A DNA stretch of 64,000 nt, taken from assembly GCF_000512895.1 (NCBI RefSeq), contig NZ_CP007033.1, forward strand, positions 1,413,001 to 1,477,000. The letters run 5' to 3'. Both the position numbers and the translations under genes were made by a program. Of the stretch, positions 6,293 through 60,240 are shown in pieces (position 1 is the stretch's first letter; every line of letters begins with the position of its first letter). This DNA is from Dehalobacter restrictus DSM 9455 (GTDB lineage Bacteria; Bacillota; Desulfitobacteriia; Desulfitobacteriales; Syntrophobotulaceae). The notes below the pieces were generated by a model. The model searched no databases and was not told where the DNA came from. It saw only the letters and a program-made list of their open reading frames with translations.

Positions 6293-6360
6293 TAGCGCGT
6301 TCTGAGAATGATTATACAAATTGTAGAGATAAGCTCTTGTATATGAACTATTTTATTAGG

Positions 6361-6532
6361 GCTTGTCTGCGTGCCACAATTTCGCTTTCGGCCGTTGCGT
6401 CCTCCGTGACGCGTCGCTCCTTGCCATCCATGGCATCGCGACATTAGGCCATCCGTGGCCGTCAAAAGGCCGCGCTACGCACTCCATGCTCCGCTTGACG
6501 CTGGAACTGTGGCACGCAGACTAATAACAAGC
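6361..6532 (+). repeat. Palindromic intergenic element, copy A (longest)
   Basis: A 172-bp GC-rich imperfect palindrome between the DnaD-type and DnaC-type genes. Perfect 14-bp terminal inverted repeats lie at 6365-6378 and 6508-6521 (GTCTGCGTGCCACA and its complement). The interior holds an inner hairpin (TTGCGTC/GACGCG) and an extra 50-bp arm (about 6412-6470) missing from other copies. The 10-bp TTAGGGCTTG occurs at 6356-6365 and again at 6536-6545; the second may start a minute solo end copy (about 6537-6571). Related copies lie near 22.7, 27.2, 34.3 and 38.5 kb. No open frame inside it looks coding. Confidence 0.85.
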
Positions 6533-6673
6533 ATGTTAGGGCTTGGCTGTGATCCCCAGACTGATTATTGGCTTAGACAAGCAGGTCTGATCGTCGGAAT
6601 GTATCTCATTATTTGTGGGGTTATTTTAAGAACATTTTCTCGCATGTTAAAATGGTATTTGAAACATAAGTAG
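6533..6673 (+). CDS. Possible 46-residue single-pass membrane protein
   Basis: This frame starts at ATG 6533, right at the edge of repeat copy A, and encodes a short protein with one convincing membrane helix (AGLIVGMYLIICGVIL) and a basic tail (KWYLKHK). No good ribosome site precedes the ATG, and its first codons fall in a stretch resembling the end of the palindromic element. It could be a real small gene upstream of the helicase loader whose start has been remodelled by the repeat, or chance. The membrane-like composition is the only positive evidence. Confidence 0.3.
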   Translation: MLGLGCDPQTDYWLRQAGLIVGMYLIICGVILRTFSRMLKWYLKHK

Positions 6674-21678: not shown

Positions 21679-22734
21679 ATGCTGTTAAAAGAATTATCTG
21701 AGCTTAACGGCGTATCCGGTAATGAAAAGACTGTCAGGGATTTTATCCTGGAACATCTTAAAGACCGACTCCAAGACAATTTGAATTCGTGCAGGACAGA
21801 TCAGATCGGAAATCTACTGATAGAGAGAAAAGGGGTCGGCAAAGAGTTCGGTGAAAATCTGCCAAAAGTCCTGGTCTGCGCCCATATGGATGAAATCGGC
21901 CTGATGATTACGGAAATTACCGCGGATGGCTATCTGAAATTTCAGACTGTCGGCGGTATTGAACCAGGGATTTTGATTGCCAAGACCGTCGTATTCGACA
22001 GCGGTCTGCAAGGCGTCATCGGTTTGAAAGCCGTTCATTTGCAGAAAACGGAGGAAAGAAAAAAAATCCCGGATATCGAGGATCTCTACATCGATATCGG
22101 GGCATCTTCCAAGGCAGAAGTAGAAAATGTTGTGAAACTGGGCGATTACGTCACGTTCCCAACAGTATTTGAAGAGATTGGTTCAGGACTGTACAAAGGC
22201 AAGGCCCTTGATGACAGGGTAGGCTGCGCGGCGGTCATAGAGCTCTTAGAACAGGATTATCCCTGTGATCTGACAGCTGTATTCACAGTACAGGAGGAGG
22301 TTGGCCTGCGCGGATCGAAAGTGGTAAGCAATTATCTTCAGGCAGATCTGGCCCTGGTTGTTGAGGCGACAGGCGCTGCAGATTTTACTGAATCCGAACG
22401 GGAAAACTGGATTGTCACACTAGGAAACGGTCCGGCCTGTTCGCTGATGGATTCCGCAACCGTCTATAGACCTGGACTCGTCCAAAAAGTGATGGCTGCA
22501 GCTGCAAAAAATAATATTCCGCTCCAATTCAGACAAGGGGCTGCCGCGGCCAATGATGCAGGAAATATCCATCAGGCCGGTATCGGCATACCTACGATTA
22601 CACTCAGTGTACCGTGCCGGAATATCCATACGATGAGCTCCATTATTTGCCTAAAAGACTATCAGCACTGTATACAGCTTCTTCAATGCATTTTAAACGA
22701 CATTCACGATTTCTTAAATTTTAATATTTCTTAA
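21679..22734 (+). CDS. M42-family aminopeptidase, second of three
   Basis: A 351-residue M42 peptidase with the same metal set: CAHMDEIGLMI, KALDDRVGCAA, VQEEVGLRGSK, and the late RNIHTMSS histidine. In the position of the fourth ligand it reads VVEATGAADF where its neighbours have VDVTHA or NIDTTF, so that acidic ligand is shifted to glutamate. GGAGG lies 10 bases before ATG 21679; an upstream in-frame ATG within the first M42 gene is not a start. It is coupled to the first gene and followed by a palindromic repeat before the third. Confidence 0.9.
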   Translation: MLLKELSELNGVSGNEKTVRDFILEHLKDRLQDNLNSCRTDQIGNLLIERKGVGKEFGENLPKVLVCAHMDEIGLMITEITADGYLKFQTVGGIEPGILIAKTVVFDSGLQGVIGLKAVHLQKTEERKKIPDIEDLYIDIGASSKAEVENVVKLGDYVTFPTVFEEIGSGLYKGKALDDRVGCAAVIELLEQDYPCDLTAVFTVQEEVGLRGSKVVSNYLQADLALVVEATGAADFTESERENWIVTLGNGPACSLMDSATVYRPGLVQKVMAAAAKNNIPLQFRQGAAAANDAGNIHQAGIGIPTITLSVPCRNIHTMSSIICLKDYQHCIQLLQCILNDIHDFLNFNIS

Positions 22735-22738
22735 TATA

Positions 22739-22842
22739 GTCTGAGGACCACAGTTCGGTGAAAAGCGAAGCTGGATGCGGAGCGCGGCTCTTTGCGCCAA
22801 GGATGGCATAAGAGCCGAAAAGCGGTATTGTGGGCCTCGAAC
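22739..22842 (-). repeat. Palindromic intergenic element, copy B (inverted orientation)
   Basis: Read on the minus strand it matches the consensus of the other copies: CCACAATACCGCTT, an inner hairpin CGGCTCTT/AAGAGCCG, and CCGCGCT-type right half. Terminal arms 22739-22752 and 22829-22842 pair with three mismatches. It separates the second and third M42 genes, the only copy seen inside an apparent operon. Confidence 0.8.
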
Positions 22843-22896
22843 TTACCCGAGAAAATACATCTAATGGAATCCCTGATAAGAAGTAGGAGGCTCTTT

Positions 22897-27202: not shown

Positions 27203-27330
27203 GGGTTAGTCTCCATAATGGATAGCCGCTTTCGGCTATTGTGCCTTCCATGGCACAAAAAGCCGCGCTGCGCAATCCATGCTCCGCTTGGCGCTGGCTA
27301 TCCATTACGGAGACCTAGTCTGGGGTTAGT
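27203..27330 (+). repeat. Palindromic intergenic element, copy C
   Basis: Between gap and pyk. Terminal arms 27209-27226 and 27297-27314 pair over 18 bases with one mismatch (GTCTCCATAATGGATAGC). An inner hairpin TTGTGCC/GGCACAA sits at about 27239-27256. GGGTTAGT occurs at both edges (27203-27210 and 27323-27330), a possible target duplication. The arm sequence differs from copies A and D while the pairing is kept. Confidence 0.85.
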
Positions 27331-34338: not shown

Positions 34339-34465
34339 CCGGGTAGGTCTGAAGGCCACAATACCGCTTTCTGGCCGTTGCGTCCTCCTAGACGCAAAAG
34401 GCCGCGCTTCGCAATCCTGCTCCGCTCACAGCGGAACTGTGGCCTTCAGACTGATCATAAGTTTT
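34339..34465 (+). repeat. Palindromic intergenic element, copy D
   Basis: Between degV and miaB. Perfect 14-bp terminal arms (34347-34360 and 34438-34451, GTCTGAAGGCCACA and its complement). The inner hairpin is TTGCGTC/GACGCAA. The right edge CAGACTGATCATAAG resembles the edges of copies A and B, which marks the end of the element. Confidence 0.85.
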
Positions 34466-38424: not shown

Positions 38425-38530
38425 CGGCATTTCTGTGTGTTATTGTGTAATATCGTAATGAGGTCTTTGTGCATTCTATAAATCAGTTATTATGTTGTGG
38501 CCTTTTTTGAAAGAACTAATCTCATTTGGG

Positions 38531-38617
38531 GCCTGTCTGGGTGCCACAATACCGTTTTCGGCTATTGTGCCCTCCATGGCGCAATAGCCGAAAACGGTAC
38601 TGATTACGCAGACCAAC
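38531..38617 (+). repeat. Palindromic intergenic element, copy E (nearly perfect hairpin)
   Basis: The shortest complete copy, between mutS and the hydantoinase-like gene. An uninterrupted 18-bp inverted repeat (38550-38567 with 38582-38599) surrounds a small loop region, flanked by GTCTG at 38535-38539 and CAGAC at 38609-38613 as in the other copies. The right-hand arm of the other elements has been replaced by a copy of the left one, and it may act as a terminator. Confidence 0.8.
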
Positions 38618-38700
38618 CCCATATAATAAAAATCATTAGATCTAAACATATTGATTTAACTGTTCAAACCAGCCTGAGCAAAACAGAAGGAGGAGATAAC

Positions 38701-60185: not shown

Positions 60186-60240
60186 CATAATCGCCGCTCC
60201 TTACCATCTATGGCAGTGAGGTATAAGGCCATCTGTAGGC
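60186..60240 (+). repeat. Decayed fragment of the palindromic element, copy F
   Basis: TCGCCGCTCCTTACCATCTATGG and the following 30 bases match the extra inner arm of copy A (CGTCGCTCCTTGCCATCCATGG and GGCCATCCGTGG) with scattered mismatches. No terminal arms remain. It lies between macA and truA. Confidence 0.6.

Follow-up and report, generated by a model that had tools for sequence, protein, structure and literature searches.

A dispersed, structured repeat of Dehalobacter restrictus that appears related to the TwoAYGGAY RNA motif and was probably spread as a mobile element

Among described RNAs, the one closest to the repeats analyzed here is the TwoAYGGAY motif (Rfam RF01731), for which binding by CsrA was earlier proposed from motif matching (PMC4333381). 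A hairpin with an ANGGAN hexaloop is common to the RNAs bound by the protein RsmE, and for CsrA the consensus obtained by SELEX is RUACARGGAUGU (PMC7652899). As regards mobile DNA, a bacterial IS630-family element has been described as duplicating its target TA (PMC2170065), and a preference of IS630 for TA within CTAG is stated in the title of a paper cited there. No description of repeats of this kind in Dehalobacter or Desulfitobacterium was found in the literature.

The window analyzed is a stretch of 64,000 nucleotides (bases 1413001-1477000) of the D. restrictus DSM 9455 genome, which is a single contig of 2,943,336 bp; window genes near the repeats include a spoVD-like gene, mutS and miaB. 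An earlier note, made from the letters of this stretch alone, had described five full copies of a palindromic element, and all five were found within a few bases of the places it gave. Copy A (6359-6526) is the 168-nt form with an extra module, and its RNA-sense strand, taken as the homologous strand in Rfam and model matches, is (-), opposite to the (+) strand of the original description. The same reversal applies to copy B (22734-22848, RNA-sense (+), described as (-)), copy C (27203-27319, RNA-sense (-), described as (+)) and copy D (34341-34456, RNA-sense (-), described as (+)), and copy E (38529-38618) is listed as (+) with no RNA-sense strand assigned. The core blocks reported as common to the copies do recur, each of them only in some: CCACAATACCGC in copies B and D and, as CCACAATACCGT, in copy E; GGCCGCGCT in copies A and D; and CCATGCTCCGC in copies A and C. 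The outer arms were said to differ between copies and yet to pair within each, and this holds for copy A (GTCTGCGTGCCACA/TGTGGCACGCAGAC), copy D (GTCTGAAGGCCACA/TGTGGCCTTCAGAC) and, with one A.C mismatch, copy C (GTCTCCATAATGG/CCATTACGGAGAC), which carries a second arm type, GTCTCCATAATGGATAG. A stray right arm, CCCCAGACTGAT, stands just 3' of copy A at 6554-6565 and was probably left behind by an older copy.

The extra module of copy A is an optional hairpin of 51 nt (6412-6462, strand (-)) with GGA loops on (-), delimited by aligned copies with and without it and missing at the same site in strain G004. The stretch 60186-60240, which had been taken for a fragment of the family, is instead a free-standing relative or copy of this module (about 60193-60240, strand (-), by inspection) and does not belong to the core.

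A covariance model (R1) was built from 18 copies, and the genome-wide search that the earlier note had proposed was run with it; the search gave 97 rows, which come down to about 70 distinct copies after merging of shadow matches on the other strand, plus matches in relatives. The typical repeat is about 116 nt long, or 167 nt with the extra module, and every copy in the genome is intergenic. Neighboring genes, whose directions come from a simple longest-ORF rule and not from an annotation, are co-directional at 50 copies, convergent at 14 and divergent at 2 (66 copies with both neighbors assigned), and the 50 divide into 28 versus 22 by copy orientation, an evenness that does not favor a cis-acting RNA.

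The copies sit after stop codons or between co-directional genes, and this placement, with 2 of 66 between divergent genes, agrees with a bidirectional transcription terminator, one of the functions suggested at the outset, although any insertion that keeps away from promoters would equally be expected to spare divergent spacers. A T-run after the outer stem is absent on either side of the listed copies, no U-tract being found directly after the stem in any of their flanks on either strand. Two window copies contain terminator-like calls, which are weak, lie inside the element and do not exceed chance, and the region as a whole has 20 such calls versus 16.9 +/- 4.4 in shuffles, which is no excess, so that the terminator is hardly supported and can be considered very improbable. 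Integron attC-like sites were dropped as a candidate, no such core sites having been seen on inspection.

Covariation was counted in an alignment of 55 copies (42 from this genome and 13 from other genera) made without structure, using a structure derived from the family consensus and comprising 32 pairs and 1749 pair cells. Standard pairs make up 92.3% of the cells versus 78.7% in 500 shuffles, none of which came as high, and compensatory cells with both sides changed number 234 versus 62, in a control that ignores relatedness and whose strength is not a probability. Compensatory changes are found in 22 of the 32 pairs. With the partners slid by 1-3 columns, 29-44% of the cells are paired, in a control that keeps relatedness but favors a structure derived from the same sequences. 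The compensatory pairing first noticed in a few copies is therefore confirmed across the family, far above both controls. Some outer arms without any sequence likeness to the common type still pair, and in the long outer stem the sequence drifts while the pairing is kept. In 17 of 18 copies, the more stable fold is that of the strand opposite to the one originally described. As to wobble pairs, one alignment has 55 A.C versus 37 G.T on the originally described strand, and a second one (the 1749 cells) has 52 G.U versus 30 A.C on the opposite strand, a weak bias that is suggestive only and slightly favors the latter, which is also the strand of TwoAYGGAY.

At the gathering threshold, Rfam yields no match in the whole window. 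A permissive search of one copy returned TwoAYGGAY at 23.8 bits on the opposite strand, and the best TwoAYGGAY score in this genome is 32.9 bits versus the gathering cut-off of 43 bits. This cut-off is passed in 10 of 41 relatives, with several copies in one genus of the same order, and at one locus of a related genus (L219) R1 scores 80.9 bits and TwoAYGGAY 45.2 bits at the same place, on opposite strands. R1 also matches the TwoAYGGAY locus L218 (E 8e-8), and the RNA-sense model R2 matches TwoAYGGAY loci of other genera (L218, E 6e-8; L206, E 3e-7), with E-values that come from short model calibrations and are rough. The reading of the repeat as a structured RNA, already considered in the earlier note, is supported by these matches in both directions, on the strand opposite to the one the note had used, and judging by them we regard the family on that strand as a divergent relative of TwoAYGGAY. 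As the window copies score below the Rfam cut-off, they are called relatives and not members of the motif. The second GGA hairpin of the family is short, and several copies have CGA in place of GGA. In another genus of the same order (L200-L217), TwoAYGGAY copies form part of a larger palindromic repeat, whose conserved outer arms, GGGACGCAGTGTGACA .. TGTCACACAAGTCCC, are its own; the Rfam motif may thus more generally represent the core of a dispersed repeat.

The loop of the main hairpin is ANGGAN or one base shorter. GGA is present in 54 of the 55 aligned copies; the A and the GGA are nearly fixed and all four bases occur at each N. By its sequence, the predicted loop has the shape bound by CsrA/RsmE, and in some TwoAYGGAY copies of other genera GTACAAGGATGTAC across the loop is a full match to the SELEX consensus of CsrA. 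The genome has one csrA, and the gene directly 5' of it is presumably fliW. Among the 41 relatives csrA was found in 37; none was found in G018, a genome with about 50 copies of the repeat and an assembly that is 84% complete. That the RNA of the family offers GGA hairpins to CsrA is a conjecture with some support.

The best-defined units come from the congener G003, in which six copies make up units of 199 bp with inverted ends and CTAG at the borders. Identity among them is 95-98.5% within the unit and 13-40% over the 60 bases alongside. One unit sits in a TATCCCTAG array, where removing the unit together with one TA restores the phase; this is the only clean case of TA duplication. CTAG-type ends on both sides were seen in 11 of the 15 G003 copies sampled, and in the genome of DSM 9455 near matches to the unit ends (up to 4 mismatches in 15) occur in 11 left and 14 right flanks versus about 0.9 and about 1.5 in shuffled flanks; round the window copies transposon ends are not recognizable. 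IS630-family elements of G003 also stand at CTAG, with different ends, one of them abutting a copy, and the right end of a decayed element of this family resembles that of the 199-bp unit. An intact IS630-family element of G003 was rejected as the parent of the unit, its ends being different. Going by their ends and target, the 199-bp units can be classified as IS630-type MITEs and the family as mobile, and the MITE-like element that was originally suspected is borne out by the CTAG units, the TA duplication and the above-chance ends in this genome. Other CTAG-bounded repeats of G003 (L180, L192) contain hairpins whose TCC/GGA loops are those of the 51-nt module, as if hairpin modules had been exchanged between MITE families.

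In two stretches of this genome (L054 1356-3119 and L055 1340-3101, genome positions 656002 and 1843286), a core copy is located just 3' of a DDE_Tnp_1_6/DUF772 transposase gene. The block containing them is duplicated with 99.9% identity, has an edge resembling an inverted repeat and is apparently part of an IS1182-like insertion sequence, and the same arrangement is present at L147 in G003. Since the core is found both in CTAG units and beside this transposase, it is carried by two or more kinds of mobile element. Another family of the order is represented by G068, with 38 copies that have other flanks and no CTAG ends, and by its congener G067, with none. Because the G068 copies have no CTAG ends and those of the window are unrecognizable, IS630-type ends do not explain all of the dispersal.

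Closely spaced copies are nearly always in the order (+)..(-), for example 1052090/1052332, 2276583/2276917 and 1744011/1744305 in the genome, with right ends facing each other and in one case meeting at CTAG, and no (-)..(+) order was seen. The pairs could result from repeated insertion at a CTAG recreated by each insertion, which leaves the fixed order unaccounted for. Intergenic palindromes paired in this order, as in REPINs, are also what would be expected of a REP-type element moved by a RAYT (Y1 tyrosine) transposase, the partner envisaged by the earlier note. Y1_Tnp was, however, not found in the three copy-rich strains G001, G002 and G004 (68-79 model matches each), and the best-defined units show DDE-type features, namely inverted ends and TA duplication in CTAG, which argues against such a partner to the point of making it extremely improbable.

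All five window sites are filled in two close strains, and for this reason the window insertions are not recent. At the site of copy C, the flanks in G001 are similar and enclose a core with a different arm type, and at the site of copy D, G004 has an internal deletion. At the site of copy E, 3' of mutS, two close strains possess a complete (+) copy followed at some distance by a (-) copy or the outer arm of one. By this comparison copy E is a fusion joining the outer halves of a (+) and a (-) copy, a fusion/deletion derivative of a (+)..(-) pair. Between strains, the arms at this site show two compensated differences and zero uncompensated ones. A captured gene between paired copies was dropped as an idea, the sole ORF-like stretch there (G004, mutS site) having no Pfam match. 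In a different genus a copy likewise lies shortly 3' of mutS (G018:C56:4205-4316, L136), as in the Dehalobacter strains (window 38529-38618).

The differing core at site C and the compensated arms at site E bear on the main rival to the RNA reading, which is folding at the DNA level, or copying between arms or copies. The repeat would then be a purely selfish DNA element without RNA function, its pairing kept for folded DNA in transposition or replication, by template-switch copying of the arms, or by core exchange between copies. The mobile unit of G003, the absent orientation bias, the patchy distribution in G068 and G067 and the rarity of wobble pairs on both strands (52 G.U and 30 A.C among 1749 cells) agree with it as well. 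Pairing or arm copying alone does not, however, predict a loop in which A and GGA are nearly fixed and both N are free; the homologous motif in other genera carries the same loops, and the slight wobble excess is on the TwoAYGGAY strand. We consider a selfish element of this kind quite possible, if somewhat doubtful.

The reading we prefer, with a probability of roughly 0.68, is that the family is a dispersed structured repeat, a divergent relative of TwoAYGGAY, which was spread as a non-autonomous mobile element and has a putative CsrA-binding RNA. In G003 and in a few copies here, the core is enclosed by a short unit whose inverted ends stand at CTAG; an IS630-family transposase would have moved this unit in trans, and the window copies would be old insertions that have lost recognizable ends. 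With less certainty, the structure, once transcribed, may act as an RNA presenting GGA hairpins to CsrA, and this would be the reason why the stems are kept as structure and the loop as sequence. A more far-reaching version, in which a transposable element carries putative CsrA-binding RNA decoys, the approximately 70 copies tune or titrate the global regulator, and TwoAYGGAY overall is a mobile regulatory RNA and not a fixed leader, seems rather unlikely to us; if it were true, each insertion would add GGA-hairpin sites to transcripts.

The preferred reading connects a mobile repeat with an Rfam motif whose function is unconfirmed, and provides about 70 natural variants of a TwoAYGGAY-related motif in one cultured, environmentally useful bacterium, by which the CsrA-binding proposal for Clostridia becomes directly testable. 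The family further exemplifies sequence drift in a mobile element that is under strong structural constraint, and a mobile repeat of this sort may scatter a regulator-binding RNA, in the form of putative CsrA sites, round the genome.

In comparison with known systems, the family shares with TwoAYGGAY (clan CL00106) a long closing stem round hairpins with AYGGAY-type loops, on the same strand and with models matching in both directions, but its copies in this genome remain below the cut-off, GGA is not constant in its short second hairpin, and the family has a transposable unit and a copy number of about 70 per genome. The CsrA/RsmA-binding small RNAs CsrB, RsmY and RsmZ likewise have GGA in hairpin loops, with the main loop of the family fitting ANGGAN; unlike them, the family is a dispersed repeat and not a dedicated sRNA gene, and its CsrA binding is only predicted. 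REP/REPIN elements with RAYT are similar as intergenic palindromes in inverted pairs and differ by their Y1 partner, which was not found for the family in the three copy-rich strains. ERIC, NEMIS/Correia and RUP elements are, like the family, intergenic, about 100-170 nt long, foldable and MITE-like, a likeness by description only, and to our knowledge they are not relatives of TwoAYGGAY. With MITEs of the IS630 (Tc1/mariner) type the family has in common, in G003, a short non-coding unit, inverted ends, a CTAG target and TA duplication, whereas its unit differs in carrying a conserved covarying core common to repeats with other ends.
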